Shown one piece after another: positions 34,285 through 58,580 of a DNA stretch of 64,000 nt. Made by a program: the position numbers and the translations under genes. Each line of letters begins with the position of its first letter. The stretch's first letter is position 1. The notes under the pieces are model-generated. The model did not search any database and was not told the DNA's origin. It worked only from the letters and a program-made list of their open reading frames with translations. This DNA is from a virus. Where the stretch lies: positions 1-64,000 of the IMG/VR virus record IMGVR_UViG_3300037189_018651; one strand, 5' to 3'.

Positions 34285-34285
34285 T

Positions 34286-35074: not shown

Positions 35075-35080
35075 TAAATA
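35073..35080 (+). promoter_or_regulatory. Late-type promoter octamer AATAAATA
   Basis: Nine bases before the ATG at 35090, overlapping the stop of the previous gene. Confidence 0.5.
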
Positions 35081-35089
35081 ATAAACAAT

Positions 35090-35852: not shown

Positions 35853-35960
35853 ATGGCTAATTATAGTCAAAGAAAGTACAGAACTGTTCATGTACAAACA
35901 GCCAGTAAAAAGAAAACTTTCCTACAGAAAGTAACAGCTTATATAAAGCGTTTTATTTAA
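35853..35960 (+). CDS. Small basic protein (35 aa)
   Basis: The frame starts at ATG 35853, two bases after the preceding stop. It encodes a Lys/Arg-rich peptide (MANYSQRKYRTVHVQ, then KKKTFLQKVTAYIKRF). Its last eight bases overlap the convergent sulfotransferase gene end. It could be a real small late protein or a chance frame. Spacing and start favour a gene. Confidence 0.4.
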   Translation: MANYSQRKYRTVHVQTASKKKTFLQKVTAYIKRFI

Positions 35961-36777
35961 GGTATCCAAAGCCTTTCTGGTACCATTGAAAGGTATTATC
36001 AATCCAAGTACAAACTGGTTCTCCCAGGATCTCCCTTGAATCATCCTTAAGTGCTTTTACCTCTCTGCGTATTGTGTGAAGAGTATCTGTTAAACCATAA
36101 ACAGAGTCATCTTCCTTAATAGACTGCTCGACGTTTTTAAAGTCGTGTTCGAAATTAGGTAGATCAAGATAACTATAAATTCGTTCCATTTGCTCGGAAG
36201 GATTAGAAGAAAGATCTTCTGCTCGTACATAAAGTATATTCTTATTAATACCTTCGTGTACGCATTGCTGTAAACGTTCTAATGCTAAACCAACAGGTGG
36301 GGAGGCAAACCAAGCATCTACTCTCTTTGCTGTAGATGTACCTTTCATATCTCTATGATTTTGTATCTCCTGATGATGTTCTTGATTTGCTCTATAGAGC
36401 TTTTCCATAGAAGCAATTATACCTTTAAGGTCTCTTACCATACAGATCATTTTAGGCTGATAGGGCATAAAAGCATTAAACCAAGAATAATGAATTGAAG
36501 CGCCTCTCGTCTTAATACAAAGATTAGGTTTATCGGTATAAGCATCAGCATATCCTTGAAGACCACCCCAACAGAACCCACGCCAGGTATTCAAAGCTAG
36601 ATCTTTATCCATAGCTTTAACCTCTGGTGTACTCGTATAATTCATCCTAGCACCATAAAGATATTCAAGTACAGGGTCGGTTTGTGTAGCTTGAATCTCC
36701 GGATGCTGATTAAAAATGCACTGAAGAAGGGTAGAACAACTTCTAGGCATTGATGAATTAAAGAATATATTTTTCAT
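35953..36777 (-). CDS. PAPS-dependent sulfotransferase-like protein
   Basis: This 274-residue protein fits the P-loop-like sulfotransferase fold, which transfers sulfate from PAPS to a hydroxyl or amine. The 5'-phosphosulfate loop is PRSCSTLL (residues 11-18, near the N-terminus as usual). The 3'-phosphate-binding motif is MVRDLKGIIAS (113-123, Arg115 and Ser123). A downstream RAEDLSSNPSEQMERIYSYL segment matches the family's y-EDL-x-x-x-P motif. There is no signal peptide, so it acts in the cytoplasm. It overlaps the glycosyltransferase stop by one base, and an APS kinase is encoded at 50283, giving a possible donor supply. The acceptor is unknown. Confidence 0.85.
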   Translation of the reverse strand: MKNIFFNSSMPRSCSTLLQCIFNQHPEIQATQTDPVLEYLYGARMNYTSTPEVKAMDKDLALNTWRGFCWGGLQGYADAYTDKPNLCIKTRGASIHYSWFNAFMPYQPKMICMVRDLKGIIASMEKLYRANQEHHQEIQNHRDMKGTSTAKRVDAWFASPPVGLALERLQQCVHEGINKNILYVRAEDLSSNPSEQMERIYSYLDLPNFEHDFKNVEQSIKEDDSVYGLTDTLHTIRREVKALKDDSREILGEPVCTWIDNTFQWYQKGFGYLK

Positions 36778-37709
36778 TAGTTTAAAAGCAGACCATTATT
36801 ATCTACTAACTTTGTACCAGGTTCAAGCAAAGAATTAGCTAATTCTTTAATATCAAAAATACTATTTACATCAGTATAAGGACATTCATGGAATCGACTA
36901 CCTACCCAGTCATACTCTTCTAAATACGATTCAACGTAATGCTTAAACTCAGTACTACCTTTTGCAATTATATTATTATGCAACTTATAACCAAACACAG
37001 TTGGCGAATTAGCAATCCATCCTACGGTAGCAGGCTTATTAAGAGCAGCACAAGCATGCTGCATAAGTGAATCAATACCTAAAAACTTATCAGATAATGC
37101 AATAACACTAATAATGTCTCGAAGATTACCTGTTAATTGTTCCGTACCATCGATTACAATCTGATTATCTCGTCTTATTTGATATACCTTACTAAATTGT
37201 GATTTAACAAGATTTACGGTTTCTTGAGCTACCTGAGGTGGTAGGTCTCTAGCCCATGAATAGGGGTATCCTTGACCATCTGCACCACCTGAGGACTGAA
37301 CAACAAGTATAGGTCCTTGCTTTTTAACCAGAGCGTTTGCAGCCATTAATTCCCTGTTACTTAGATAAATTCTAGGCTGTACGCTATCACAGGGAATATC
37401 ATAAAGATCACACCAAACCTCTGCAAGATGCTTTCTCTTTAGAAGAAGATCTTCAGAATGATAAGGCTCAAGACGCATTATTTTAGTCTTTTTATCCTTA
37501 ATGTAATCCTCGTAAAAATATAGCAAAGTACCAAACTTATAAACCCTATGTACGTCTGGATTATGTATCCATACTTCAGGCCATGCTGTAACAATAATTA
37601 ACTTACTTACAAAATGTTGTTTTTTAATTGCATGCGCAACAGCAGTTGCAGCAACGTTTTTACCCATACCTCCATCAATATGTAGTATAATATATTCATA
37701 TTCGTTCAC
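36777..37709 (-). CDS. Glycosyltransferase family 9-like (heptosyltransferase-type)
   Basis: A 310-residue protein starting at GTG 37709. The N-terminal Rossmann-like half has HIDGGMGKNVAATAVAHAIK followed by KLIIVTAWPEVWIHNPDVHR, the GT9 pattern (G-x-G-k-n/d, then t-x-p-x-v-x-x-n-p). The C-terminal half has ISVIALSDKFLGIDSLMQHACAAL, split as ALSDKFLGIDSLMQH and ACAALNKP. This matches the GT-B acceptor/donor region 'D-S-x-x-x-H-x-A-a-A-l-x-k-P'. GT9 enzymes build LPS cores. This one could modify host surface sugars or a phage glycan. Coupled to the sulfotransferase, it suggests a sulfated-sugar product (inference). Confidence 0.75.
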   Translation of the reverse strand: MNEYEYIILHIDGGMGKNVAATAVAHAIKKQHFVSKLIIVTAWPEVWIHNPDVHRVYKFGTLLYFYEDYIKDKKTKIMRLEPYHSEDLLLKRKHLAEVWCDLYDIPCDSVQPRIYLSNRELMAANALVKKQGPILVVQSSGGADGQGYPYSWARDLPPQVAQETVNLVKSQFSKVYQIRRDNQIVIDGTEQLTGNLRDIISVIALSDKFLGIDSLMQHACAALNKPATVGWIANSPTVFGYKLHNNIIAKGSTEFKHYVESYLEEYDWVGSRFHECPYTDVNSIFDIKELANSLLEPGTKLVDNNGLLLN

Positions 37710-37764
37710 GTATTAATTTTATATTAGAACAGTATATATTCAACTTTAATTTTTAAAATTAACG

Positions 37765-37772
37765 GTTAAATA
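37765..37772 (+). promoter_or_regulatory. Late-type promoter octamer GTTAAATA
   Basis: Eleven bases before the ATG at 37784. A minus-strand AATAAATA (37778-37771) overlaps it and could serve the GT9 operon about 60 bases away. Confidence 0.45.
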
Positions 37773-37783
37773 TTTATTAACCA

Positions 37784-40156
37784 ATGTCTGTACAAAAACT
37801 AACTGGAGATGCTGCTAGAGCGCAGTTTGATCAACTTGCTGCTCGGAACGCTGCTTCAAGTGCTGGAGCAAACCAATTTCTTGGCAATAGCAGCGCACCA
37901 TCAAGTACAGGAGCGAACCAATTTCTTGGCAATAGTAGCGCTCCTTCGAGTGCTGGAGCAGATCAGTTCTTAGGAGAAAGTAGTACACCATCATCTGCTA
38001 GCGGTAAAGGTACTACTTACTTAAACGGGCCTGATACTTGGTTAACCGGTATACTAGACCCTGCTAAAAAGGATAAAGTTATACCTCATTTAGGTCTTTT
38101 TGATAATGCATTTAACATGCTAAATCAAGCACAAGCAACAAATTCCGGTATGGAAGCTGCGTTGATGCAATCAAATGCAATGTTAAACGGTGCTGGTATT
38201 CAAGCCGCACCTGGTGCTTTAACCCAGGATGTACACGCTATTGTACGTAATCAATACGCTAATCTATTTGTTAATACCGCTAATAATTCTATAAATTGTG
38301 CAGTAGGTAGTATTGCTAACGGGTTAGCTGGTGCTGAAGCAGGTATTGCATCATCACTTGGTCAAGCAGTACAGATAATGCATGACAAGTTTAAACCTGT
38401 TAATAAGTTTATCGGTTCAACTTTATACGGTTTAACTGGTATGCTAAGAGATCCTTTAGGTGCCCATGGTATTATACCTACAATAGGCGGGGTTATTAAC
38501 AAGGTAAATCCAAAATTTGCTCAATCCCATGAAGCTTCTTTTCTAGCTATTAAGATGGAGGAGATATCCCATCTACCAGGTAATATATACGGTAGTATTC
38601 AACACTTACAAAGCGCTATGGCAGGAGGTAAGTTATTCGGACCTGTACAGTTTATTAAGGACATGTATCTAGGTGCTATGAATATTATCAAAAGCATCGG
38701 TAAATTTATTAATGATTTATTTTACATGTTACAAAAATTTGTATTCATGATTATAAATGAATTGATACCTCTTAATATGGTATTAGGCTTTTTACAAGCT
38801 GTTACCCAGATCGCAGGTAGTGTAGGTTCTATAGCAAGCGCATTTGGAGGTTTAAACCAAATAACACAATTTACAAGCCAATTAACAAATGTTACAGGAC
38901 AGCTAGGGTCTATTATTTCCAACCCTGCTGCATTAGCTGCTCGTTTCCTACCACCGCAAGTTCAACAAGGAATGGCGTTTTTAAATAATCCTGAAGCTTT
39001 GGTAAGCGCATTACCACCGCCGTTTAGTACGATACTATGTATTCTTAATAAGATATCCGGATACGGTTATAACTACAATATGGGGTATGGTCTCACTACT
39101 GCTTTAGACCAAATTAAAGGTGGTGTACTTGCAGGCATAATAGGCGCTTTTAGTAGTCAATTTCAAATTTTAAATTCTATTTTTAAACCTACTGCTCCTC
39201 CTGTTCCACCGGCTTTTAGCTACAAATACAATAACGTATCTGCCCCTGGTCGTCCTAATTATAACACAGATAGAAGTGGACAGGTTGTTAAGGATCCCTG
39301 TCTCGGTGCACCTAAAGCACCTTACTCACTTGATCCTGCTACATCTACAGCAAATGCTCCGAGTAATGCAGCTGATGCTCAAAAAACATACGGAGATGCT
39401 TCCGCAGCTGCAACTGCTGCAGCAGACAAACCTTTCAATCTAGATTACAGCAATGTAACAAGCCCGATTGAAGCTGCAACATTATCACCTGTTGAGTTAG
39501 CTATGGCTGATAACGGTCAAGAAACATTCAACAATCAAGAAAGAATTTATAATAATATGTCTGATGCTGCATTCAATATGACAGATCTTGCTTCTCCCGG
39601 TAGTATGGATGTAGCTCAACCCGAACCCACATCTGCTGCTAATGATTTAGCGGGTGAAGAATCACCTATAACATATGCTGACACTGAAGAATCGTTAGGT
39701 ACAGGAGCAAGTGCAACAAGTTCAGGCATTTACAATGATGATAATGCTGATACTACCCCTACACCGAGTACACAATCCGCAGATCAATTTTTAGGTAATG
39801 AGAGCGCTCCTTCGAGTGCAGGAGCAGATCAGTTCCTCGGTAACAGTAGTGCACCGTCAAGTGCAGGAGCAGATCAGTTCTTAGGAAATAGTAGTACACC
39901 TTCTAGTGCGGCAGCAGAACAATTCTTAGGTAACAGTAATAGTACACCAACACCAACAAATCCTGCTACAGATGAGTTCTTAGGTAATAGTACTGCATCG
40001 TCAAATGCAGCAGCTGATCAGTTCTTAGGTAATAGTAGCGCACAAGCCCCTCAACCAGCAGGTAGCGCTAGCCAAGAACCTGCAACATTCGATAAAGCAA
40101 CCGCTGCTCAGTACCAACAAAAAATGAATGCACGTAAACAATTCCTTGGAGAATAA
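37784..40156 (+). CDS. Virion-associated protein with QFLG repeats at both termini
   Basis: A 790-residue protein of unknown function. Residues about 30-75 contain three copies, and residues about 665-770 six copies, of a roughly 15-residue unit with core (A/G)(A/N/D)(Q/E)FLG(N/E) and SSxPSS linkers. The protein ends in another QFLGE. Between them is a conserved-looking body with hydrophobic helices (about 285-340) and a Gly/Ala-rich segment. DNA copies differ at many third positions, so the peptide is under selection. It is the first gene of a late operon with the hub hydrolase and spike. This suggests a baseplate-hub or tail-interior component whose QFLG peptides bind a partner. Confidence 0.5.
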   Translation: MSVQKLTGDAARAQFDQLAARNAASSAGANQFLGNSSAPSSTGANQFLGNSSAPSSAGADQFLGESSTPSSASGKGTTYLNGPDTWLTGILDPAKKDKVIPHLGLFDNAFNMLNQAQATNSGMEAALMQSNAMLNGAGIQAAPGALTQDVHAIVRNQYANLFVNTANNSINCAVGSIANGLAGAEAGIASSLGQAVQIMHDKFKPVNKFIGSTLYGLTGMLRDPLGAHGIIPTIGGVINKVNPKFAQSHEASFLAIKMEEISHLPGNIYGSIQHLQSAMAGGKLFGPVQFIKDMYLGAMNIIKSIGKFINDLFYMLQKFVFMIINELIPLNMVLGFLQAVTQIAGSVGSIASAFGGLNQITQFTSQLTNVTGQLGSIISNPAALAARFLPPQVQQGMAFLNNPEALVSALPPPFSTILCILNKISGYGYNYNMGYGLTTALDQIKGGVLAGIIGAFSSQFQILNSIFKPTAPPVPPAFSYKYNNVSAPGRPNYNTDRSGQVVKDPCLGAPKAPYSLDPATSTANAPSNAADAQKTYGDASAAATAAADKPFNLDYSNVTSPIEAATLSPVELAMADNGQETFNNQERIYNNMSDAAFNMTDLASPGSMDVAQPEPTSAANDLAGEESPITYADTEESLGTGASATSSGIYNDDNADTTPTPSTQSADQFLGNESAPSSAGADQFLGNSSAPSSAGADQFLGNSSTPSSAAAEQFLGNSNSTPTPTNPATDEFLGNSTASSNAAADQFLGNSSAQAPQPAGSASQEPATFDKATAAQYQQKMNARKQFLGE
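37850..37992 (+). repeat. N-terminal QFLG repeat block (coding)
   Basis: Three imperfect 45-bp units encoding SSAGANQFLGN-type peptides. They are related to the block at 39770-40050. Confidence 0.8.
39770..40050 (+). repeat. C-terminal QFLG repeat block (coding)
   Basis: Six imperfect units of about 42-54 bp encoding (A/G)xx(Q/E)FLGNxS peptides. The first three are nearly identical and the later ones diverged. Confidence 0.8.
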
Positions 40157-40181
40157 TTGATAACAAAATTAAGTAACTAAC

Positions 40182-42377
40182 ATGATGAAAGAATATTACG
40201 GTAATTATTTGGGAGTTTGTGTTTATAACAAAGACCCTGAATTTAGAGGTCGTGTTAAGGTATTCATTCCTCATATCATGCCTGCTCTATATGAAAAATG
40301 GAATCAAGCAGGTACTGATATTAATATAAAATCATTAGGTGCAAATTTAAACGGAGCATTAGATGACAATGTTTTAAAAACATTACAGAAAATTCTTCCC
40401 TGGTGCGAAGCAGCTTCACCGATTATTGGTTCATGTACTGCAGGGCACAGAGATTCCAGTACAGGTAATTGGCTACAAAGTGCAAAAGATGTACTAGGTA
40501 GAGCAGTAGCAGGTGCAACAAATCTTGCTTCTGGTGCTCTTGCAGCAGGTAAATCATTACTAGATTCTTCGTCAGCTTCTTCGTTAGGTCAAAAAATTAT
40601 AGCTGCAACCAACTACCCAAAGCATTATAACCCTAAAACAGGTACAACAGGTGCTAGTACGTATTGTGCAGCTATTAGTACAAACGCTCTTAATAAGACA
40701 TTCGGTGTTAATATTGCACCAACAGCATCTGCTAAAGATTTTGGTCCAAATTTAGTCAAAGCAGGTTTTCAGCCTGTAGCATATGATCCTAATGCAACAT
40801 ATCCTCCTGGTGCTGTAAAGGTTTCTAATGGCGGTGAAAACGGCCATATGGAATTATCAGATGGTACCGGTAAATGGGTTTGGAGTGAAGCAGGGCCAGG
40901 TAATGCGTATAACGGTAATGCTTCAAACATTCAGGTATACCTACCTTCACAGGAAATGTATCAACGAGCTGAACCTGGTGCTCAAATTGATCCTACAGCT
41001 GTTACGAATAACTCAACTGCAACAGATCAAGCCCCTACAACAGCTAATGCTACAACTGCTGCTCCAGATGGTAGTGCCCAAGGGCTAAGACCTGCTGCAA
41101 TGCCTTTTAAAAACCCTGAGGGTGCACCTGCTTTACAAGGTCAAGAAGGACAAGACGCTAAACCAGATACAAAAGGTGTTACACCTCAATTTCCTAATTC
41201 ATCTCTTGAACCTTGTAGCGGTACAACCTACGGAGGACCAGAAACCGATCTTACCACTCTTCTTGATATTAAACCGTCTCAGCGACCTCCTGAAATTTTA
41301 GCAAAATATTCACCTGAATTTATTGCAAGACAGGAAGCTAGTATGAACGCCCGAGGTATGAGAACAGGTACCCTGAACCTTGCAGACGCTTACAACGGTT
41401 GTTACGGACCATTAAATGCAGATCACACTGTAGGCTCAACTCACTACCCCGGAGGTACTGTTTTAAGTATATTCAATAACGATAAATCACCGTTTAATCC
41501 TTCAGGTAATAATCCTGCAGGTACATACACTGTTACTGATACCGGTAACGCTGAGCGTTGTTATTTCCATTTTGACTTCTTTACTAATACACCTGCAGCG
41601 TATGAAGGTAAATTGAGTAATCTATTTTGTGCTGTTCAGAGTTTAGGGTCTAAAACAAATAGTCAGTATAGAAAAGCGCAAGCCGCTTATGGCGGACAGC
41701 CAATGTCTGATAAGACCGTTGGTGACGGCGGAGGCGGTTCAAAGGGCACAGGTGGTAAAGCACCGAGTTCAAATGTAATTCAAACAACAACAGGTAAAGG
41801 ACCTTCTCCGACAGATACTAACGGTATGGCACAAGGTATGTTTGCAGTACCCAATGAAGGAGCGTTTTTATGGGTATTCTTCCAAGAAGGTAATCCGTTA
41901 TTCCCAGTTTATTTTGCAGCAAGCTTCGGGCCTACTGAATGGGCGAGTGCATATCATGGTAGCTCGCCACCACTTTACTACCCTAACGCAAACGATAGTA
42001 GTGATAATAAAGTATATACGCAGTCTTCTGTCTTTAGACCGAACGGTTCAGGAGCTATTTTATTCAATGATTCGTCAGGAGATTCTATTGGTGATCAACG
42101 AGGCATTAAAATTGCTAATCATAATGGTGCCCACTTAGCATTTCAAAATGATCACACCGTATTATATTCACCAGATGATTTTTATAAACAATCTGATGGA
42201 CATTCTTTTGATGCTGCCTTAGGTAATAGAGAACATTACACACAAGGAGATCACAATATGGTAACTATGGGCGATCACTTTGTTAAAGTTGGTAATATAA
42301 CACAAAAAGCGTTTGATGCTGTTAAAGGTATACAAGATATTCTTAATCAAGCAAACGAAATAATGAAACAAAACTAA
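40182..42377 (+). CDS. Baseplate hub/spike gp5-like protein with inserted CHAP-like and 3D-like cell-wall hydrolase modules
   Basis: This 731-residue protein opens with a gp5-type OB fold (YYGNYLGVCVYNKDPEFRGR, then VKVFIP, ILPWCEAASP). The matching second half of the fold (VPNEGAFLWVFFQEGNPLFP, VYFAAS) appears only near residue 560. The about 450-residue insert holds a CHAP/NlpC-like unit (Cys162 in STYCAAISTNAL, His222 in NGHMELSDGTGKWVWSE) and a 3D-like unit (TGTLNLADAYNGCYG, GTVLSI, YTVTDTGNAERC with Asp453, then HFDFF). Both module types act on peptidoglycan. T4 gp5 instead carries one lysozyme domain. It probably punctures and digests the wall during infection. Confidence 0.7.
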   Translation: MMKEYYGNYLGVCVYNKDPEFRGRVKVFIPHIMPALYEKWNQAGTDINIKSLGANLNGALDDNVLKTLQKILPWCEAASPIIGSCTAGHRDSSTGNWLQSAKDVLGRAVAGATNLASGALAAGKSLLDSSSASSLGQKIIAATNYPKHYNPKTGTTGASTYCAAISTNALNKTFGVNIAPTASAKDFGPNLVKAGFQPVAYDPNATYPPGAVKVSNGGENGHMELSDGTGKWVWSEAGPGNAYNGNASNIQVYLPSQEMYQRAEPGAQIDPTAVTNNSTATDQAPTTANATTAAPDGSAQGLRPAAMPFKNPEGAPALQGQEGQDAKPDTKGVTPQFPNSSLEPCSGTTYGGPETDLTTLLDIKPSQRPPEILAKYSPEFIARQEASMNARGMRTGTLNLADAYNGCYGPLNADHTVGSTHYPGGTVLSIFNNDKSPFNPSGNNPAGTYTVTDTGNAERCYFHFDFFTNTPAAYEGKLSNLFCAVQSLGSKTNSQYRKAQAAYGGQPMSDKTVGDGGGGSKGTGGKAPSSNVIQTTTGKGPSPTDTNGMAQGMFAVPNEGAFLWVFFQEGNPLFPVYFAASFGPTEWASAYHGSSPPLYYPNANDSSDNKVYTQSSVFRPNGSGAILFNDSSGDSIGDQRGIKIANHNGAHLAFQNDHTVLYSPDDFYKQSDGHSFDAALGNREHYTQGDHNMVTMGDHFVKVGNITQKAFDAVKGIQDILNQANEIMKQN

Positions 42378-42386
42378 TAATATAAA

Positions 42387-44333
42387 ATGGACATTAGTAA
42401 CAATTATACAGCGTTTGAAGATCAAAATATAAACGCTTCACTTTTAAACTCAACCGATATTACAGGAACGTTTAATGTAGCGTTATCTGTAGAACCGTGT
42501 GCAACAGGTAATACTGCAGCTCCGGTTATACCGGTTACACAAGCTGCATCTAATTTAGCAGGTAACTATAGTAACTTAGGACCTTCAGGTATATCAGTAG
42601 AGAGTGTATCTACTCCTTCTCCGAATGTAGGTAATGACATAATACGTACAAAAATAGCAGATATTTCTCAGACACCTGTACCGGTTTTTGATCAAAATTT
42701 ACATACAACGATACCTAGCCCGTCTTCAACTGTTAGTGTATACGATGTACCTAGAACACAAACAGGTTCAAGATCAGGTACGTACGCTGCTTATTATCGT
42801 TTTGGTCCTCCTATTGATGACCCTAATATACCATCATTTGGTCCTAACGATCCTCTAAACAACCCCAATAGAAAACATAGCGTTAATAGTAACTTATGCG
42901 ATACTTTTCCTTGGGAACTTCTAACAATTCCTTGCCCAACTTGTGATGGCGGTAAGAAGAAAACACTAGAAAATAAAGCAGGTAAAAAGTATATCGATTT
43001 AACAGCTTTCTTTCCTCGTGCGCCTCTTGCAATAAGATCTGTTGTAGGTGGTATTGATGATTTCATTAACGGTACAATACACGCAGTAGATGTTACTTCA
43101 CTATTTAAAAAAGGTAAGTGTCCTACATGCGAAGGTAAAAATAAGGTTAAAGATTCGTCTGGTCAATCAGGTATAAATGCTAAAAAAGCCGCTCAGCATT
43201 TAGATAGTAAAAAAGATGAGATAATGAAACATGAAGCTAATGCTGGTGCTCCATCAGGTTGCGGTAACCGTTATTCTATTATTGCAGGTCATGATTGCTT
43301 GGAAGTAGGACTAGGTATGAATAACGCTACCTCTTATCGTGTTGATCCTGAAGGTACTCAGGCTCCAGGATATCACGGTACTGATGTTGCGCAAGTTACT
43401 GTTAATAAGAAGTCACCAGCTGTTTATGGTACAAATCCTCCTTCAACTCCCGGAGGCCATTACGTTATTAAATGCAGTAATAAATTTACTGCTTTTAGTG
43501 GAGCACAAGGTATTGAACTTGTTACTCACGGTCCTGTTAATATTGCAGGAGGTATAACTAAGATTACAGGGCCAGAAGTAACAATAGGTTCGCAGTCAGG
43601 GCCTGTTACAGTTTCAGGTCATCATTTACAATTAACAGGTAAAACACTTGCATTAAATGCAACTGACGGCGACAGTCAAGTTGTTGTTCAGGGTACGTTA
43701 GGAGTAGCAAGTAATATGGTTGTAGGTGGCGGCGCTCACGTTGAAGGAGACTTGTCGTTTATATCCGCATCAGCTCCTTCAACTATTAAGCGTACAAAAT
43801 TTTCTGGTCCACCTGATATGAATTCAGGTATGGCTGCCTGGGGAGGTATAGCTGTAAAAGCAATATCTAAACATATCGAAAATATGCAGAGAGATGTTGC
43901 TATATGGGCTACAGATCCTTCCTTATCTCTTGCATCTCCTAAGGGTCAACAGAAGTTAAATGATCATATGAAGCATTTATCATATCTGTGTAATCCTTAT
44001 GAACAGGAACCTACAGGCTGGATTATACCGGGTACTACATGGTCAGTATTAATAGATGGTTACCCTGCTACTATTGAAGCAGTTGGACCATGTGATTTAA
44101 ACAACTTCCCTCACCAGCATCAGTTACCTGATATGTTCCATACTCACGAATTTGAAGCACCTAATATTAAGTTATTAGATGACGCTAAATCAGTTCGAGA
44201 AAATTCATCTGCTAAGAAAGAGAAAATACCTGCAACAGCAAACCCAGATCAAGACAGACCAGGGTTCTTAGAGCCTATCTTACAGCCTCTCAAGATAGTT
44301 GTAGCAAAAGCTACAGATACATACGCAGTTTAA
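42387..44333 (+). CDS. Spike/needle-like baseplate protein with paired CPTC motifs and a His cluster
   Basis: A 648-residue protein following the gp5-like hub. Two CPTC motifs, each followed by an acidic residue and Gly (183-186 and 245-248, CPTCDGG and CPTCEGK), resemble half of a DnaJ-type zinc-binding pair. Residues about 370-470 are short beta repeats (VTISGSQ-like, GVASNMVVGGGAHVEGDLSF), consistent with a beta helix or prism. Near residues 575-588 lies FPHQHQLPDMFHTHEF, a histidine cluster that could bind iron or zinc, as at tips of contractile-tail spikes. A spike role is inferred from position and repeats. Confidence 0.5.
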   Translation: MDISNNYTAFEDQNINASLLNSTDITGTFNVALSVEPCATGNTAAPVIPVTQAASNLAGNYSNLGPSGISVESVSTPSPNVGNDIIRTKIADISQTPVPVFDQNLHTTIPSPSSTVSVYDVPRTQTGSRSGTYAAYYRFGPPIDDPNIPSFGPNDPLNNPNRKHSVNSNLCDTFPWELLTIPCPTCDGGKKKTLENKAGKKYIDLTAFFPRAPLAIRSVVGGIDDFINGTIHAVDVTSLFKKGKCPTCEGKNKVKDSSGQSGINAKKAAQHLDSKKDEIMKHEANAGAPSGCGNRYSIIAGHDCLEVGLGMNNATSYRVDPEGTQAPGYHGTDVAQVTVNKKSPAVYGTNPPSTPGGHYVIKCSNKFTAFSGAQGIELVTHGPVNIAGGITKITGPEVTIGSQSGPVTVSGHHLQLTGKTLALNATDGDSQVVVQGTLGVASNMVVGGGAHVEGDLSFISASAPSTIKRTKFSGPPDMNSGMAAWGGIAVKAISKHIENMQRDVAIWATDPSLSLASPKGQQKLNDHMKHLSYLCNPYEQEPTGWIIPGTTWSVLIDGYPATIEAVGPCDLNNFPHQHQLPDMFHTHEFEAPNIKLLDDAKSVRENSSAKKEKIPATANPDQDRPGFLEPILQPLKIVVAKATDTYAV

Positions 44334-44884
44334 ACACTAAACCCGGATGTATAGTGATGTATTAATTTTTTAGCTACCGTGTGAGGATCTGCTTTAATAT
44401 CAGCTGTTTCAATAGAACGTAATGTCTCTATAAACCCGATATAGTTACGATGTACATCAGGATGGTAAACATGTTCATCTGCCGAAAGAACCGTATAATG
44501 TACATTAGATAGTTTATTAGTATCAAGTAACCCTCCTTCAGCATTTTGTATCTCGTCCATTAAGACATTATGATACTTCGTTGAAATATTATTCATTATT
44601 TTAATATGCTCGTGCGGTTTAAAGTCTTCCGGTACTTCAAGACTTGAAAGAGCAGGAGGAGTCCAATCAGGGCCTAGATGTTGATACTTTAACGCTTCCC
44701 ATGGATGTTCAGGTATACCTCTGAAACTCGACAGAAAGGACTGGATAGTTGTTAAATGATCAAAGAAGTTATTAGCAGTAAGTGCAGAATGTAAAGCACT
44801 TGTAAGTTCTGGGGAGTAGGTAAATACTTCCTCCCCAAATACTGTTGATAAATGAGGTACAAACGTCAGGTCATCGTTTAACAT
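44330..44884 (-). CDS. Hypothetical protein (184 aa)
   Basis: No recognised family. The protein is His- and Pro-rich and mainly helical (LTSALHSALTANNFFDHL, then HIKIMNNISTKYHNVLMDE). It ends four bases inside the convergent spike gene and starts 33 bases after the PhoH stop. It is therefore probably co-transcribed with phoH from its late-type promoter. No transmembrane segment or cysteine pair. Confidence 0.55.
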   Translation of the reverse strand: MLNDDLTFVPHLSTVFGEEVFTYSPELTSALHSALTANNFFDHLTTIQSFLSSFRGIPEHPWEALKYQHLGPDWTPPALSSLEVPEDFKPHEHIKIMNNISTKYHNVLMDEIQNAEGGLLDTNKLSNVHYTVLSADEHVYHPDVHRNYIGFIETLRSIETADIKADPHTVAKKLIHHYTSGFSV

Positions 44885-44917
44885 AGTACTACTACTTATG
44901 TTAAAAAATAACAGATG

Positions 44918-45712
44918 CTAGTGGTGTTTAATTACTACCTGAGGAAGCTCTTTAAACTTCTTAACAACAAACTTACATAGTTCAGATCTAACTACATCTA
45001 GTTCTGTTAATTCAATACAATGTATTCCCATTTCTTTTGCTTCTTCGCAATCAAATAAGTTATACACTTCTTTAAAGCCTGATCTACCTGTAGGTAAGTC
45101 AGACTGATCAGGATCCCCACAAATAATTGTTTTTGTAAATAAACCTAAACGTGTTAACACAGTTAATAGTTCTTTACGTGTTAAGTTTTGAGCTTCATCA
45201 CAGCAAACGAACTTAGCTGAGAAGTGCAACCCTCTAGCAAAATTAACCGGGCACATTGTTAATCTATTATCTTTTTCAAGTTTATCGATAATAGGTTTTG
45301 GTAAAAGCTCAGAGAACTTTTCGTTAAAAGGTGTCAAATAGACGTTAAACTTATCTACAAGATCTCCTGGTAAGAAACCAAGTTTTGAATCAGCAGATTC
45401 AACAGCTGAACGAACTAAAACAATATCTGATACCTTTCTAGTATTTAAAAGCTGTAATCCGAGATACATTGATAACAATGTCTTGGAAGAACCAGCCACA
45501 CCTTTTAAAAACAATACTTTACAGGATTTGTCTAAAAACAGGTTTATTATCTCTCTCTGTTTTTCCGTCCAGGGTAGTTCTCTTATAATGAGGTCGAAGT
45601 TTATCTTATCGCGTTGGAACACGTAAGGGGAGTGATCACCACCAGATACTGTTACCATCTGGGTAGACCCGTCTTGCTTATTCGTCTTTCGACGAGAGCT
45701 TTTTTTGCTCAT
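44918..45712 (-). CDS. phoH: PhoH-like ATPase
   Basis: A 264-residue PhoH-family P-loop ATPase, a common gene in marine phages whose exact role (phosphate stress or RNA metabolism) is unsettled. Walker A is GVAGSSKT (71-78, a GSSKT variant of the usual GTGKT). Walker B is FVCCDEAQN (Asp172-Glu173), followed by the sensor region IICGDPDQSD. The length equals that of bacterial PhoH core domains. About 45 basic, disordered residues precede the core. It has a late octamer 7 bases upstream, unusual if the role were early. Confidence 0.9.
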   Translation of the reverse strand: MSKKSSRRKTNKQDGSTQMVTVSGGDHSPYVFQRDKINFDLIIRELPWTEKQREIINLFLDKSCKVLFLKGVAGSSKTLLSMYLGLQLLNTRKVSDIVLVRSAVESADSKLGFLPGDLVDKFNVYLTPFNEKFSELLPKPIIDKLEKDNRLTMCPVNFARGLHFSAKFVCCDEAQNLTRKELLTVLTRLGLFTKTIICGDPDQSDLPTGRSGFKEVYNLFDCEEAKEMGIHCIELTELDVVRSELCKFVVKKFKELPQVVIKHH

Positions 45713-45719
45713 CTATTAA

Positions 45720-45727
45720 TATTTATT
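45720..45727 (-). promoter_or_regulatory. Late-type promoter octamer AATAAATA (minus strand)
   Basis: Seven bases before the phoH ATG, divergent from the element at 45784. Confidence 0.55.
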
Positions 45728-45783
45728 CAAAGTTAGAGTAACTTTTGGACTTGCACATCACAGCATTTTCCTTTATATTCGAC

Positions 45784-45791
45784 CTTAAATA
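45784..45791 (+). promoter_or_regulatory. Late-type promoter octamer CTTAAATA
   Basis: Ten bases before the ATG at 45802. It supports the internal start of that gene. Confidence 0.5.
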
Positions 45792-45801
45792 CTATACACA
45801 A

Positions 45802-47103
45802 ATGTCACAAAATCATTTTTTAACACAGACATACGAAAAAGTTATTGGTGACACCAATTACAAATCTCAATATCGTACCCTCAATGAAGCATATACCTCT
45901 ATACACGAAGAGGCTCAAGAAGGTATTCGTATAGATGTAACAAAACCAATACTAAATGTTGTACCCTGGACACCAGTACAGCAAAATCTGTACAATCTTA
46001 CAGCTAGTAAACAGATAGAAACAACAAGTGATTACCCAGAACTCGAAGAGGAAAAGTCAGGCGCAGGTCCGGGTGAATTAGCTGTTGCATCTGTTATTAC
46101 AGGTATAACAGATCCTAATCAGTGTTTGAAGCTTATTTCAGGACAGAACAAATCTTATGATGTTTCTTGGCCTACAAAAGAACATCCTGAATATACTTTC
46201 GAGGTTAAAATGATTGAAGAAGGGTCTGTACGTATTGCGAAACATGGCGCCAATTTTACAAAGAAATTTTTTAGTGAAGTTAAGCATGTTTTAAACGATA
46301 TTTTAGATGAATATGATCTATTAAGCGAGGAAGATAAGACCTATATCAACAACTATATTGTTTCTCATTTACCAGAAGTTAAAGAACCCGGTAAAAGAGC
46401 AGTTAAAGGACGTGCACAGTACGATAAACTAATGCTTAGAAGAACAAGCTGGTCTATTGAAAAATGGGTTAAAGGTATTTTATCTGACACAAAAGAGTTT
46501 CCTTTTTCACTTATTTACTCTGATAAAGAACCTGCACTTACTAGAGGCGGTATTAGAGTTTTAATGTCTGTTAAAACGTTCGGTACAATTATTAACAATA
46601 TAGAAGAAAATGAACAAGTAGAAGCAGGTGAAGAACCTAGTGATCATAAATCTCAAGAAGATAATCCTAGAGTCGCTGCTCTTAAAAAGACCTTTAAGAG
46701 CTATTACAGTGCACCAAATTCCGAAAAAGCTTCAGCTTTAGATCAAGAAATTGAAAAGACAGCTAAAATAGTTGACAAAAAACTTTCAAAAGCTAAAGTA
46801 CATATTACAGGTGAAGGAGAATCTAGTTGGAGAGAATTTTTTAAATCCGTTTCAAAACTAAACATACTTGATAAAGTAAATGATATTCAGGAAATGATTA
46901 AGAGTCCTGAAAGCATTAAGAGTTTATTTCCTTCTCATCTTACAGGTCTATTCGTTGTATCGCCAGCAGGTTATATTTACGTACCTCATAATGATTTAGA
47001 AAAATATATTACTATCGCAACTATATCACTCGGTGGACCGAAAATAGCTATTAAACATCCAAATGCAAACGTTCAAACAATACCTACTGGAAAAGAATAT
47101 TAA
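45802..47103 (+). CDS. Unknown protein, possible PD-(D/E)XK-like nuclease fold
   Basis: 433 residues from ATG 45802 (MSQNHFLTQTYEKV). A longer TTG-started frame at 45745 crosses the promoter-like octamer and was not used. Residues about 85-145 contain SGAGPGELAVASVITG, then SYDVSWPT and YTFEVKMIE. The order of a Glu in a helix, a D in a strand and E-x-K is reminiscent of restriction-endonuclease-like folds. The rest is charged and helical, with a C-terminal SHLTGLFVVSPAGYIYV. The nuclease idea is weak. Function unknown. Confidence 0.5.
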   Translation: MSQNHFLTQTYEKVIGDTNYKSQYRTLNEAYTSIHEEAQEGIRIDVTKPILNVVPWTPVQQNLYNLTASKQIETTSDYPELEEEKSGAGPGELAVASVITGITDPNQCLKLISGQNKSYDVSWPTKEHPEYTFEVKMIEEGSVRIAKHGANFTKKFFSEVKHVLNDILDEYDLLSEEDKTYINNYIVSHLPEVKEPGKRAVKGRAQYDKLMLRRTSWSIEKWVKGILSDTKEFPFSLIYSDKEPALTRGGIRVLMSVKTFGTIINNIEENEQVEAGEEPSDHKSQEDNPRVAALKKTFKSYYSAPNSEKASALDQEIEKTAKIVDKKLSKAKVHITGEGESSWREFFKSVSKLNILDKVNDIQEMIKSPESIKSLFPSHLTGLFVVSPAGYIYVPHNDLEKYITIATISLGGPKIAIKHPNANVQTIPTGKEY

Positions 47104-47254
47104 TGACCCAGTAAGACCAGGTATACTCAAGCGTAGAGTATCTGGTAAGGTTACTTGTTCAAAAGCTCGTTCTATTAAAGCAGGGCAAAAGAATAAAGGT
47201 AGTAATGTTGCAAAAGCCGCTCAACGCTTTATAAATTATCACTGCAACAAATAA
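47063..47254 (+). CDS. Small basic conserved phage protein
   Basis: A 63-residue protein overlapping the previous gene by 41 bases. MQTFKQYLLEKNINDPVRPG, then ILKRRV and a Lys-rich KGSNVAKAAQRFINYHC end give it the look of small basic proteins seen in large phages. It distantly parallels the protein at 52950 (short leader ending LLE-K, then a basic body). Possibly nucleic-acid binding. Function unknown. Confidence 0.55.
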   Translation: MQTFKQYLLEKNINDPVRPGILKRRVSGKVTCSKARSIKAGQKNKGSNVAKAAQRFINYHCNK

Positions 47255-47424
47255 TGTATGGTGTAAGAATAGCATCAGTATGGGTAGAGGATATCAAACA
47301 ATGGGTACCCTTGACACAAGTTATCTTTATTCAAAGATATACACAAGACGGTAAAGAGTGTCTTCAATTTAAGTTTGAAGACAAGATTTTAGAGAGCTAT
47401 ATAGAGTACAAAGAATTATATTAA
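47254..47424 (+). CDS. Small protein (56 aa)
   Basis: The frame starts inside the previous stop (TAATG overlap) and ends two bases before the next ATG, a tight operon fit. The protein looks like one small beta-sheet domain (MYGVRIASVWVEDIKQWVPL, QVIFIQRYTQDGKECLQFKF). Function unknown. Confidence 0.6.
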   Translation: MYGVRIASVWVEDIKQWVPLTQVIFIQRYTQDGKECLQFKFEDKILESYIEYKELY

Positions 47425-47425
47425 T

Positions 47426-48283
47426 ATGAAAATATTGTACTTCACAAAAGGTGATCATCTTGATTATCAAAACGATTGTCTTTTAATAGGGTTAAAAGAG
47501 TTGTACGGGGCTAATGTTGTAGATATACAAAAGCAACAACACAGCTATCTAAGCTACAGCGAGAACGTTGCTAAACAAATGTACGGTAAAGGTATGACCG
47601 TAACAAGAGTACTAGAGGATTTAGAAGTAGATAGAACGGATATAACAAATAAAATTAAAAACAAATACTTCGATTTAATAGTATACGGCTCTATTTGGAG
47701 ATGTAACGACTATATAGAAAATATTCTAGAGTATTATTCAAAAGATAAAATTATTTGTGTAGACGGTGAAGATGAAGTTAATATACACCCTGTATATGAT
47801 TTAGGAATTTGCTATTTTAAGAGAGAATTAATATACACAAAAGAACGACTACTACCGATTTCGTTTGGATTACCAACTAGTAAAGTAAACTTTAATAAGA
47901 AGAAAATAAAAGATACATCATACATAACACCGCTAGACAAAACAACATACATTTATAATAATGAAACAGATTATTATAAAGACTATAATGATGCTCGGTT
48001 CGGAGTTACATGTAAAAAAGCAGGCTGGGATTGTATGAGGCATTACGAAATTTTAGGTAATGGTTGTATACCGTTGTTTAAAAATATCGAACTATGTCCT
48101 ACTAACACAATGACTTCTTTTCCTAAAGAACTATGTATTAATGTAAATAAAGATATTCTAAACGAGAAATACGAAACAGTATATGAAAAATATATTGAAC
48201 GTTTTGAGAATCATTTCTTAAACAACAATACAACTTCTCAAACAGCTAAAAAGTTTATTTCCGATATATTGAATATTAAATAA
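47426..48283 (+). CDS. Glycosyltransferase-like protein
   Basis: A 285-residue protein with a GT-B-like layout. The N-terminal half has alternating strands and helices (MKILYFTKGDH, FDLIVYGSIWR). The C-terminal block CKKAGWDCMRHYEILGNGCI followed by PLFKNIELCP matches the sugar-nucleotide-binding 'K-x-G-x-D-x-x-R-x-x-E-i-l-a-x-G-x-i-P' region of DUF3880/exostosin-like glycosyltransferases. It could glycosylate a virion protein, DNA base or host sugar. It follows three small genes in one plus-strand operon. It is Lys/Asn/Ile-rich, more AT-rich than the neighbouring virion genes. Confidence 0.6.
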   Translation: MKILYFTKGDHLDYQNDCLLIGLKELYGANVVDIQKQQHSYLSYSENVAKQMYGKGMTVTRVLEDLEVDRTDITNKIKNKYFDLIVYGSIWRCNDYIENILEYYSKDKIICVDGEDEVNIHPVYDLGICYFKRELIYTKERLLPISFGLPTSKVNFNKKKIKDTSYITPLDKTTYIYNNETDYYKDYNDARFGVTCKKAGWDCMRHYEILGNGCIPLFKNIELCPTNTMTSFPKELCINVNKDILNEKYETVYEKYIERFENHFLNNNTTSQTAKKFISDILNIK

Positions 48284-48287
48284 TACT

Positions 48288-48485
48288 ATGACACCTTTTC
48301 AACTCATAGGTCATGTCACTATGGCTCTCTTTGCTCTAGGAATGCTTGGGTTCTTTTGGATGATCTTTAAAGGGGTTAAGAAAGTAAAAAAGAAAGGCAG
48401 AAAAGCTGGAAAGAGATTTAAGAAGTATACTCTATGGAAAAAAAAGTTTGAAGAGTTTAAGAAGAATTGGTTCTATGAAATTTGA
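48288..48485 (+). CDS. Small single-pass membrane protein
   Basis: A 65-residue protein with one hydrophobic helix (about 5-29, FQLIGHVTMALFALGMLGFF) followed by a strongly basic Lys-rich cytoplasmic-type tail. The topology suggests insertion with the basic tail inside. A lysis-accessory or membrane-exclusion role is possible. No family recognised. Confidence 0.55.
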   Translation: MTPFQLIGHVTMALFALGMLGFFWMIFKGVKKVKKKGRKAGKRFKKYTLWKKKFEEFKKNWFYEI

Positions 48486-48502
48486 TTAAGTAATAACACA
48501 CT

Positions 48503-48859
48503 ATGTCTTTTAAGGATTTTTATAAGAGCAACGAAGATTCAGTTAATAAAGTACAAGCAGCTTTAGATCTTGTCGGTGCGGTTCCAGAAGTAGGAGCTCC
48601 TGCTGATATCGCTAACACAGTTATTTCTACATTTCGAGCTGCTGCTGCAGATACTTCTGATGAAAGAAAGAAGCATATTATAAATGCCGGTATTAGTGCT
48701 ATTGCAATAATACCTTTTGCTTCATTAATTAATTTATTAAAATTACGTAAAGTAAAACCTGTTGCTAAAGCTGCAATTTCAGGAGCAAGAGAACTTAAAA
48801 CATTTGGTAAAGGTGTGCAGGCTGCAGGTAGGTTCAACAACGACGATACAACTGCTTAA
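48503..48859 (+). CDS. Small hydrophobic Gly/Ala-rich protein (118 aa)
   Basis: Residues about 18-75 read AALDLVGAVPEVGAPADIAN, then HIINAGISAIAIIPFASL. This pattern of 'PxxGxxxD...AGISAIAxxPF' resembles the membrane-active linker region of polymorphic toxins (pre-toxin-like). It also recalls the Gly/Ala segment in the tape-measure-like protein at the window start. A membrane-interacting role is plausible. Convergent with and overlapping the phosphoesterase gene by four bases. Confidence 0.5.
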   Translation: MSFKDFYKSNEDSVNKVQAALDLVGAVPEVGAPADIANTVISTFRAAAADTSDERKKHIINAGISAIAIIPFASLINLLKLRKVKPVAKAAISGARELKTFGKGVQAAGRFNNDDTTA

Positions 48860-49527
48860 ATCTCTTTCAAAGTAACCTTACCTTCCTTGTCAATTATTAG
48901 ATAGTGACAAGGTTCATCACAAAAAGAGCCTGAGTTGTGATACTCTTTTCCTGATTCTAGGCATACAAAGCTTTCGGCAAAATGGATATGTCCTCCAAAA
49001 ATGGCATCATAGTTTTTGTCTTTGATATAGTTTAGAGCCTTGTCTCTTATATTGGTTTTGATTTTTAAGAACCTTTTAGATGTTCTCTTTAACCATCTAC
49101 TGAATCTCTTTGATCTATCTATGCTCTGGAAAAAATAATAAATCTGTTCTGCTATATCTGTTATCCAAGGGTGTTTAAAGATAAAAGGATCGAACTGATG
49201 AAAATGAATAAACAGCATCTTCTTTCCATTTACTTCTAGTTCTAATCTTTCAACAAACTCCAGGCCTAGAATCTTGATAATGTTCTTTGACTTTATATCG
49301 TGATTACCGAGAATAAAAGTTACCCTTTTCTTCTTTGATATCTTTCTTAACAAACTCAGAATATTCCAGTGTCTTTTCTTATATCTATGAATATGCTTGT
49401 TATCGAATATATCTCCGTTAAGAATTAAATGATTATACTTCTCATTCTTAAGAACTTTAACTAACGATTTAACTTTAGAAATAGGGCTTCCGAGATGAAT
49501 GTCTGAAATGACTAGAATATTGGACAT
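48856..49527 (-). CDS. Calcineurin-like metallophosphoesterase, LpxH-like
   Basis: A 223-residue metallophosphoesterase with all metal-binding motifs: SDIHLG (Asp9, His11), NGDIFD (Asp39), LGNHD (Asn75, His76), IHFHQFD (His108/110) and GGHIHF (His180, His182). The spacing and length match UDP-2,3-diacylglucosamine hydrolases (LpxH, lipid A synthesis, about 240 residues), with a basic amphipathic region (about 128-165) of the kind LpxH uses at membranes. The substrate could instead be another phosphodiester. A late octamer lies 6 bases upstream. Confidence 0.82.
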   Translation of the reverse strand: MSNILVISDIHLGSPISKVKSLVKVLKNEKYNHLILNGDIFDNKHIHRYKKRHWNILSLLRKISKKKRVTFILGNHDIKSKNIIKILGLEFVERLELEVNGKKMLFIHFHQFDPFIFKHPWITDIAEQIYYFFQSIDRSKRFSRWLKRTSKRFLKIKTNIRDKALNYIKDKNYDAIFGGHIHFAESFVCLESGKEYHNSGSFCDEPCHYLIIDKEGKVTLKEI

Positions 49528-49533
49528 CTATAC

Positions 49534-49541
49534 TATTTATT
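49534..49541 (-). promoter_or_regulatory. Late-type promoter octamer AATAAATA (minus strand)
   Basis: Six bases before the phosphoesterase ATG. It abuts the divergent sigma70-like promoter at 49541-49568. Confidence 0.55.
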
Positions 49542-49568
49542 TGACTTACCTTTCTTTTGCTCTATAAT
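49541..49568 (+). promoter_or_regulatory. Strong sigma70-like promoter
   Basis: TTGACT (49541-49546), a 16-base spacer and a perfect TATAAT (49563-49568) end seven bases before the ATG at 49576. It should drive the three-gene operon ending in the APS kinase. Confidence 0.75.
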
Positions 49569-49575
49569 CAAGCTT

Positions 49576-50052
49576 ATGTTCAATCTATTCGGATCTAATA
49601 AAAACGAACAAGAAATTATTGATGATGCTCTAGGTACTAATCCATTTGGTTGGCAATATGTACCTATCGAGACAGCAGAGTACTTTAAAGGAGAGTCTGA
49701 GAAGTTCTATAAAGAGAATCGAGAACTAAAAGATGAAATTCTTGAATATAAAAAGGGCAATAAAAATTGGATGAATCTTTATCAAGAAGTAGTAGACAAA
49801 AACAATGAACTCTTAAAAGAAGTTATTAATTTGAGACATCTTAAAGAAGAGAATGTCAGGCTAATAGAAGAAATTGCAAAGTTAAAGAATCATATTGTTA
49901 ATAACACCGTAGAAAAAGAACCTAAACCTTATCATTCTTCATACCCTATTCATTGGGGAGGATGGACTAGGGAGGAAGAAGAATGGAAGTGCCCTTGTAA
50001 TATTTGTAAAAAGAATAACCTTGAATCTCGTAGAGAATGGGATAATTTGTAA
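49576..50052 (+). CDS. Coiled-coil protein with C-terminal CxC-x2-C motif
   Basis: A 158-residue protein. Residues about 40-118 form a long Glu/Lys/Asn coiled coil. The C-terminus has WKCPCNICKKNN, three cysteines that could bind zinc. It is the first gene after the sigma70-like promoter, so it is expected early, upstream of the 76-aa protein and APS kinase. Function unknown. Confidence 0.6.
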   Translation: MFNLFGSNKNEQEIIDDALGTNPFGWQYVPIETAEYFKGESEKFYKENRELKDEILEYKKGNKNWMNLYQEVVDKNNELLKEVINLRHLKEENVRLIEEIAKLKNHIVNNTVEKEPKPYHSSYPIHWGGWTREEEEWKCPCNICKKNNLESRREWDNL

Positions 50053-50055
50053 TAT

Positions 50056-50286
50056 ATGCCAAAAGCAACCATAACCTACGACCTACCAGAAGAACAAGAC
50101 GACTTTGACTTTGCCAACAATGGCGGAAAGTTCTATTCTGTTCTTTGGGAACTAGATCAATATCTTAGAAACAAAGTCAAGTATCCAGCAGAGGATGCTC
50201 ATGAAGAGTATACTAATGCTATGGAAGCAGCGAGACAAGAACTTTGGAACTTGTTAGAGTCTTACCATCTCGACTTAAATCGATGA
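50056..50286 (+). CDS. Small acidic phage protein (76 aa)
   Basis: MPKATITYDLPEEQDDFDFA followed by KFYSVLWELDQYLRNKVKY is a pattern seen in small proteins of many phages (tYdLPEE, then a helix with LR-x-x-x-K), of unknown function. It overlaps the APS kinase start by ATGA, so it is translationally coupled to it. Confidence 0.6.
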   Translation: MPKATITYDLPEEQDDFDFANNGGKFYSVLWELDQYLRNKVKYPAEDAHEEYTNAMEAARQELWNLLESYHLDLNR

Positions 50287-50843
50287 AACCTACTGTTGTT
50301 TGGATTACAGGTTTATCTGGAGCTGGCAAAACAACCGTTGCAAATGCTTTGTATAACAAGTGTATATTTCAATTCCGGACAGGTCTTATTGATGGTGATG
50401 CTTTGAGAGCTAGTTATGATATACCAAAAGGCTTTGATATGAAGAGTAGACAGAGAATGGTATCTGAAGCTATTTATTGTGCTAAAAATATGCTTACTTT
50501 TCAAAAGGCTAATCTTGTTATTGTAGCTATGATTTCCCCTCTCCGATCAATGCGAGATGAAGCTCGAGATATGCTAGAGAAATACGCTAGCGCTAGATTT
50601 ATTGAAGTGTATATGGATACACCTTTACGTACTTGCGAGTTAAGAGATCCTAAAGGTTTGTATAAAAAAGCACGTGCAGGGGAGATAAAAGACTTTACAG
50701 GTATCGATTCTCCTTACGAGCCACCAGAGTTTCCAGAAGTACGAATACATCCAAGATCTACACTTTTTGGTGAAATGACCGTTGAACGAGCCAGAGATAT
50801 TATCTATAATACCATACTTGATATATCCAAACCTATTTTATAA
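50283..50843 (+). CDS. cysC: Adenylylsulfate (APS) kinase
   Basis: A 186-residue kinase that phosphorylates APS to PAPS, the universal sulfate donor. I used ATG 50283 (MKPTVVWITGLSG), coupled to the upstream stop, rather than a TTG at 50244. Motifs: P-loop GLSGAGKT (10-17), the DGD substrate motif (37-39), the CysC lid and substrate motif KGLYKKAR (124-131), then FTGIDSPYEPP (138-148). Length matches free-standing bacterial CysC. No ATP sulfurylase is present, so the host must supply APS. A PAPS-type sulfotransferase at 35953 gives it a partner. Confidence 0.93.
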   Translation: MKPTVVWITGLSGAGKTTVANALYNKCIFQFRTGLIDGDALRASYDIPKGFDMKSRQRMVSEAIYCAKNMLTFQKANLVIVAMISPLRSMRDEARDMLEKYASARFIEVYMDTPLRTCELRDPKGLYKKARAGEIKDFTGIDSPYEPPEFPEVRIHPRSTLFGEMTVERARDIIYNTILDISKPIL

Positions 50844-58572: not shown

Positions 58573-58580
58573 TATTTATA
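58573..58580 (-). promoter_or_regulatory. Late-type promoter octamer TATAAATA (minus strand)
   Basis: Perfect octamer, 11 bases before the ATG at 58561. Confidence 0.6.

Follow-up and report, generated by a model that had tools for sequence, protein, structure and literature searches.

Background

Some bacteria have a dedicated supply of the sulfate donor 3'-phosphoadenosine 5'-phosphosulfate (PAPS) that is tied to a sulfotransferase, which in turn produces a signalling or surface compound: RaxST with RaxP/RaxQ, and NodH and NoeE with NodPQ. We describe here a set of phage genes that resembles this scheme. The genes lie in a stretch of 64,000 nucleotides (the window), positions 1 to 64,000 of IMGVR_UViG_3300037189_018651, a 93-kb IMG/VR virus record from a T4-like phage, and comprise cysC, encoding an adenosine 5'-phosphosulfate (APS) kinase, and a coupled pair encoding a glycosyltransferase with a predicted GT9 fold (GT) and a sulfotransferase (ST). 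We consider it rather probable that these genes form a split sulfation pathway, in which CysC makes PAPS and the GT-ST pair uses it to put sulfate on a glycan. The likeness to RaxST and Nod-factor sulfation is one of working scheme only, with no membership shown at the sequence level, and those systems differ in being bacterial and in having an ATP sulfurylase.

Phage cysC genes as such are known, and four reports, in the text available, class them with assimilatory sulfate reduction or with sulfur/energy metabolism (PMC10914622, PMC9611531, PMC8066274, PMC12713726). The first of these, on freshwater phages, counts 62 phage cysC genes, finds larger genomes in the phages that carry them, and describes phage cysC transcribed above bacterial cysC in some lake samples. 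The gene family is shared with the window, but there it is read as assimilatory sulfate reduction, in a main text that, as available, contains no word beginning with “sulfo”, whereas here it is tied to sulfotransferases and glycan genes. Phage sulfotransferases have been seen separately: OM43-phage contigs carry Sulfotransfer_3 proteins, the function of which is called unclear in the text available (PMC10580990), and the Sulfotransfer_3 proteins of cyanophages S-SKS1, S-SRM01 and S-SCSM1 are 26–29% identical to the window ST, while these three phages have no match to the window CysC or GT at E 1e-5. No paper joining phage cysC and a sulfotransferase in one pathway was found in the partial literature searched, most subscription papers lying outside it; the enzyme families are known, and what would be new is a phage pathway undescribed in that literature. 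If the product of CysC does feed sulfotransferases, these phages have been wrongly included in the accounting of sulfur assimilation, three small genes suffice for a direct test of virus-driven sulfation of surfaces, and phage sulfotransferases such as those of the OM43-phage contigs acquire a function based on context.

The APS kinase

CysC (50283..50843, + strand; 186 aa) matches PF01583 with an E-value of 4e-45 (154 bits, cut-off 21.1) and the NCBIfam model TIGR00455 (apsK) with 161.1 bits (cut-off 138.7), the remaining NCBIfam APS-kinase models staying under their own cut-offs (e.g. NF003013, 149 vs 163 bits). The start is probably the ATG at 50283, as most relatives open with MKPTVVW, rather than the TTG at 50244 of the mechanical list of open reading frames (ORFs). 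In the CysC of Mycobacterium tuberculosis, D478, D480, R483, F492, R497, R559, K562 and F576 bind APS, Mg or nucleotide and C556 has a role in the lid, according to the available text of PMC4373884. When these residues were placed onto the window protein by hand via an alignment, the P-loop and the equivalents of all nine, the lid cysteine included, were found to be present, and across 18 phage CysC rows the nine positions are invariant save R42 (17/18) and F138 (13/18; Met in 5). A supposed lost APS contact (N83 of the fungal enzyme, Met in the window CysC) was dropped, as no such side chain is named in the part of PMC4373884 available.

The phage protein is thus like the M. tuberculosis enzyme and the kinase domain of human PAPSS in its family models, P-loop, APS/ATP residues and lid cysteine. 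It differs from them in being encoded by a stand-alone gene with no ATP sulfurylase found alongside, and in that the second adenine-stacking Phe is Met in 5 of the 18 phage rows. Such a sequence is most naturally read as that of an active APS kinase.

The ATP sulfurylase family PF01747 was found in none of 21 records searched, the window's own record and G001, a near-identical 218-kb contig that carries cysC, GT and ST, included (CysN was not searched), which suggests that APS in the window phage is host-made, as an earlier note on this DNA had supposed.

The coupled GT-ST pair

The GT gene (36777..37709, - strand; 310 aa, GTG start) is the first of the pair and the ST gene (35953..36777, - strand; 274 aa) the second, the stop of the one and the start of the other sharing one base (TAATG). 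All three genes that the earlier note had named, APS kinase, ST and GT, are real and lie where it had placed them, and its coupling of ST to GT is borne out by this overlap, as is its identification of CysC by the family models and by the retained M. tuberculosis APS/ATP-binding residues.

The ST matches PF13469 (1.1e-11, 45.9 bits, cut-off 27) and PF00685 (2.4e-9, 37.4 bits, cut-off 22), corresponding to Sulfotransfer_3 and Sulfotransfer_1. Both loops that would hold the phosphates of PAPS are intact, as had been claimed: P11-R12-S13-x-S15-T16 and R115..S123 (R-x7-S) are invariant in 15/15 close relatives, and P11, R12, S15, T16, R115 and S123 in 12/12 diverse phage proteins (the other 11 being 27–74% identical to the window ST), with S13 nearly so. 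Four proteins (L082, L086, L087 and L092) were excluded from the alignment, stops being reported in L082 and the coordinates of all four having been set alike. At E-values of up to 0.5, a profile built from the 12 diverse proteins matches 53 sequences of solved structure, which range from TPST1 (3e-11) by way of StaL and CurM to SULT and heparan sulfate 3-O-sulfotransferases, with TPST2 at 1.5e-7 and a few named otherwise (4gox, a polyketide synthase; 2z6v, uncharacterized), while a profile from the 15 close relatives alone reaches only E 0.085 at best. NoeE is a weak NCBIfam match, far under its cut-off, for two other phage STs, and none of 228 pattern matches in genome contigs was confirmed as a bacterial relative. 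Judged by these sequence matches, the window ST is a member of the PAPS-dependent sulfotransferase superfamily.

The ranking of the solved matches raises the question of whether the ST might sulfate tyrosines of virion proteins, those of the tail or others, with the GT modifying the same proteins separately. The leading position of TPST1 and TPST2 and the presence of virion families near the pair in relatives (see below) speak for this. However, most of the match comes from the part of the protein that holds the two PAPS loops, and the partners of ST in its cassettes are glycan enzymes. The catalytic Glu of TPST lies in a GEETR motif; opposite the GEET stretch the phage profile shows different residues, at an identity too low to be sure. 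We regard protein sulfation of this kind as quite unlikely.

For the GT the evidence is structural. Searches of the window protein gave no match in Pfam, PF01075 included (a relative, L040, reached 16 bits against a cut-off of 22), and just 16 bits against the NCBIfam heptosyltransferase model (cut-off 170), nor did sequence profiles compared with solved structures yield a GT9 match. The predicted model, with a mean predicted local distance difference test score (pLDDT) of 83.9, has as its top solved match the GT9 structure 3tov (Z 22.3, root-mean-square deviation 3.4, 267 residues aligned), and it also matches WaaF (Z 20.4), TibC (19.2) and WaaC (19.0). The eleven top matches span Z 18.2–22.3 and eight of them are GT9 enzymes, the other three being chains of NDH-PSI complexes (Z 18.2–18.8), before the values fall to 11.9. 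The model thus indicates that GT has a GT9 fold, in keeping with the “GT9-like” of the earlier note. Compared with the GT9 enzymes WaaC, WaaF and TibC, the fold is alike (Z 18.5–22.3), but the window GT has no sequence match by profile and carries GGxGKN in place of the Asp motif. WaaC has an equivalent of D110, the catalytic Asp of TibC. That residue is described for TibC in the available text of PMC4358343, where TibC is a protein heptosyltransferase, and because of this the GT9 fold cannot decide between lipopolysaccharide (LPS) and protein as the acceptor.

The pairing is conserved well beyond the window. GT and ST lie together on one strand at 57 of 63 ST loci; in the six others the locus is cut by a contig end (three), lacks GT (two, L241 and L242) or has a distant ST (one, L259). 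Four of the 57 have an extra gene, for an FkbM methyltransferase or a GT25, between GT and ST, and in two the order is reversed. At the level of records, ST is present in 27 of 39 and GT in 25 of those 27, and the overlap of the two genes recurs in the distant phages L334, L301 and L336. Because the pair recurs in dozens of contigs, the association is not due to chance. Cassettes of some relatives contain in addition genes for GT25, GT2/GT92-type, FkbM methyltransferase or radical-SAM/SPASM proteins; radical-SAM/SPASM ORFs directly 3' of ST were noted at L029:10767-11825 and L026:10792-11820.

In relatives, eight large ORFs close to the pair were compared with known families: three belong to virion families (a tail spike in L022, and in L034 a portal and a virion structural protein), and the remaining five have no match, as is also the case for the window's own large neighbours of the pair. 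Placement of the pair among virion genes is therefore partly a matter of interpretation. A run of related ORFs immediately upstream of ST (32807-35851), three of them in one cluster and a fourth with a CIGDTLP-type start by eye, perhaps encodes virion fibre proteins.

The same surroundings bear on the possibility that the pair modifies bases of the phage DNA, giving a glycosylated and sulfated hypermodified genome. Nucleotide modification systems based on glycosyltransferases and sulfotransferases have been reported in phages (PMC10829341, in the text available, citing Iyer 2013). The large neighbours of the pair in relatives are, where recognised, virion genes, however, and the fold of GT is that of LPS and protein heptosyltransferases, so that we consider DNA modification very improbable.

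Linkage of cysC to sulfotransferases in other phages

Within the window cysC is 12.6 kb from the GT-ST pair, and the 15-kb span is not a single locus. That CysC, GT and ST would act in one pathway is instead suggested by their linkage in other phages. The cysC loci compared were the best 80 of 113 confirmed, 51 outside the clade of the window and 29 inside it, as assigned by best match (the clade counts taking in L286 and L287, which are only 51% identical). In three other phages cysC shares a stretch of about 4 kb with relatives of the window's GT and ST. In L334 (G114) the order, in one direction, is cysC, an adenylyltransferase-like ORF, a DUF2061-containing ORF, GT and ST, with GT and ST 40% and 31% identical to those of the window. 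L301 (G094) has cysC, an adenylyltransferase-like ORF, GT and ST, more widely spaced; in both these phages cysC, GT and ST run in the same direction inside 4.2 kb, while in L336 (G116) the GT-ST pair is turned round. In L338, ST is followed by a 349-aa CysC-adenylyltransferase fusion. L295 has another glycan cassette, in the order GT25, Sulfotransfer_2 (L295:2837-3436), GT10, FkbM methyltransferase, cysC and an adenylyltransferase-like gene.

These are not isolated cases. From the 51 loci outside the clade, 35 records were searched with PF13469 and 33 with PF03567 (Sulfotransfer_2), with 9/35 and 13/33 over the cut-off, and 20 of the 33 searched with both had one or the other. A sulfotransferase lies at most 5 kb from cysC in 14 of these 20, against a mean of 2.2 under random placement, and none of 20,000 trials reached 14. 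As the 20 include near-duplicates, they were thinned by eye (no clustering) to 17, of which 11 show the linkage against 1.8 expected. Controls were few: cysC-negative relatives collected by capsid had PF13469 in 0/7 and PF03567 in 0/4. A motif scan for ST-like ORFs found them in 7/51 cysC flanks outside the clade, 0/29 inside it and 0/42 (shorter) flanks of capsid genes. Measured from one matched span to the other, Sulfotransfer_2 and cysC are 82–102 bases apart in G095, G104 and G097. The distance is about 500 bases in G101, while for G088 (the L295 record) and G089 it is 1.6 kb.

It is here that the published reading of phage cysC has to be weighed, namely that CysC is an auxiliary gene of assimilatory sulfate reduction, its PAPS passing to a host PAPS reductase and on to cysteine, with the GT-ST pair unrelated. 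The four reports cited above favour it, as do the absence of the clade's own cysC from ST flanks and the existence of long ST records without cysC. On the other hand, cysC is elsewhere linked to sulfotransferases beyond chance and sits in glycan cassettes. Also, the PAPS reductase family PF01507 had no match over the cut-off in the 21 phage records (two lay below it, at 21.4 bits for G055:121982-122092 and 20.1 bits for G054:74251-74373, vs 22.5), which speaks against a reduction run by the phage and says nothing of the host enzyme. We think that cysteine synthesis is a rather unlikely role for the window CysC, and this reading may be wrong for many of these phages.

A further observation concerns the source of APS in these phages. 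An adenylyltransferase-like ORF of the HIGH superfamily (PF01467, NMNAT-like; e.g. L334:5521-5982) follows cysC at 37 of the 51 loci outside the clade of the window and at none of the 29 inside it, and CysC-adenylyltransferase fusions with a PF01467 match occur at L338:4920-5969 and L333:4935-6011. The protein that follows or is fused to CysC might make APS, as a candidate minimal ATP sulfurylase. Taken further, several phage lineages would possess dedicated sulfation, with PAPS from CysC, linked sulfotransferases of two families acting on glycans to the phages' own benefit and, in many of the phages, the adenylyltransferase-like protein as the minimal ATP sulfurylase, a generalisation that we advance only tentatively and regard as doubtful. 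If it were true, the adenylyltransferase-like protein linked or fused to CysC would represent a new kind of PAPS synthase, and decoration would be the task of much of the phage cysC that is at present assigned to assimilatory sulfate reduction. A DUF2061 membrane domain also accompanies phage cysC (L334:5969-6406 by Pfam; L336:5969-6175 and L307:4726-4935 by eye).

Co-occurrence within the clade of the window

The earlier note had named a lack of co-occurrence of cysC and sulfotransferase in related phages as grounds for refuting its interpretation, and co-occurrence was found in one direction only. Among records of at least 160 kb, all five with cysC have ST, but only five of the eight with ST have cysC. 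At a minimum of 100 kb the figures are 7/9 and 7/16, and at 60 kb 10/16 and 10/26. Collected via cysC and ST themselves, with numerous fragments and probably some near-duplicates among them (e.g. 203- and 143-kb ST records with similar matches), these sets provide no base rate. Records reached via the major capsid protein (15, mostly longer ones, picked from 80 capsid loci) had cysC in two and ST in one.

Several findings weigh against the proposed sulfation pathway. ST records of 203 and 199 kb have no cysC, and one of 170 kb has only a match under the cut-off (16.5 bits); 6 of the 16 cysC records of the clade of at least 60 kb show no ST, though these are fragments; and ST is absent from all 29 cysC flanks of the clade, up to 5 kb. 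Outside the clade, 13 of the 33 cysC records have neither PF13469 nor PF03567 (PF00685 was not searched), which counts against a universal link between cysC and sulfotransferases. As to the proteins, the AlphaFold model of ST from its 15 close relatives is unusable (pLDDT 40.1), and GT has an invariant Lys17 in GGxGKN where GT9 enzymes have Asp (a motif comparison only), so that its catalysis may differ or be lost.

The last point admits an account in which the pair is decayed or repurposed, the GT9-like protein having lost its catalytic base and the pair having no role in sulfation. The invariant Lys speaks for this. Against it, D213, S214, Q217 and H218 of GT are invariant across nine diverse rows, as the ST loops are in 12, and no stops interrupt the matched frames of the loci listed, except for a split ST frame in G037. 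We give such decay very little credence. Loss of catalytic residues, which the earlier note had named as a refutation, was not seen among the APS/ATP-binding residues of the window CysC or in the ST loops.

Since ST occurs without cysC in three of the eight records of at least 160 kb while all five cysC records have ST, CysC looks like a booster of donor supply and not a requirement. The asymmetry fits such a role, short of proof.

Proposed pathway

In the sulfation pathway that we favour, CysC would phosphorylate host-made APS to PAPS, the coupled GT9-fold transferase would attach a sugar to an acceptor, and ST would move sulfate from PAPS onto that sugar; phages of the clade without cysC would draw on PAPS of the host. 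The identities of CysC and ST and the pairing of ST with a GT9-fold protein are derived from sequence and one structural model. That the sulfate would go to a sugar is suggested by the coupling of the two genes and by the glycan-modifying genes in cassettes of relatives. As the acceptor we think a glycan most likely, either on a surface or attached to a virion protein; a part of the virion is slightly favoured, since the genes lie among those for head and tail. The interpretation put forward in the earlier note thus stands as regards the enzyme identities, the GT9 fold and the lack of PF01747, and is helped by the one-cassette cases elsewhere, but co-occurrence is one-sided.

Other features of the region

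The families recognised in this T4-like phage include those of the portal, major head protein, baseplate wedge, clamp loader and ribonucleotide reductase, and positions 28000-52000 of the window have no nucleotide similarity match to known phages. Upstream of cysC lie an ORF of variable length (49576..50052, + strand), whose homologues range from 94 to 546 aa among relatives (some near contig ends), and a 76-aa ORF (50056..50286, + strand) overlapping the CysC start by 4 bases. Both clusters are found at 17 of 18 cysC loci; the 18th (L008) starts 489 bases before cysC, the upstream genes being cut off by the contig end. Downstream, counting seven genes per locus, the cluster of a 193-aa ORF with a lipoprotein-like start by eye (50852..51433, + strand) occurs in 13/18 loci and that of a phage lysozyme (52084..52695, + strand; PF00959, 4.7e-9) at 9/18. 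Between these two is a 117-aa ORF (51734..52087, + strand) with hydrophobic stretches by eye and no NCBIfam match, whose cluster is present downstream in several cysC loci. A 285-aa ORF between the GT-ST pair and cysC (47426-48283) has no match in Pfam, PHROG or NCBIfam.

The motif TATAAATA, the T4 late promoter consensus, is rarer in the window than expected (7 copies vs 13.2). Six of the seven copies are nevertheless followed, after 5–13 bases, by the start of an ORF on their own strand, with copies at 6344, 28885, 32792 and 50839 on the + strand and at 58573 and 62774 on the - strand, as if messages from these sites were nearly leaderless.

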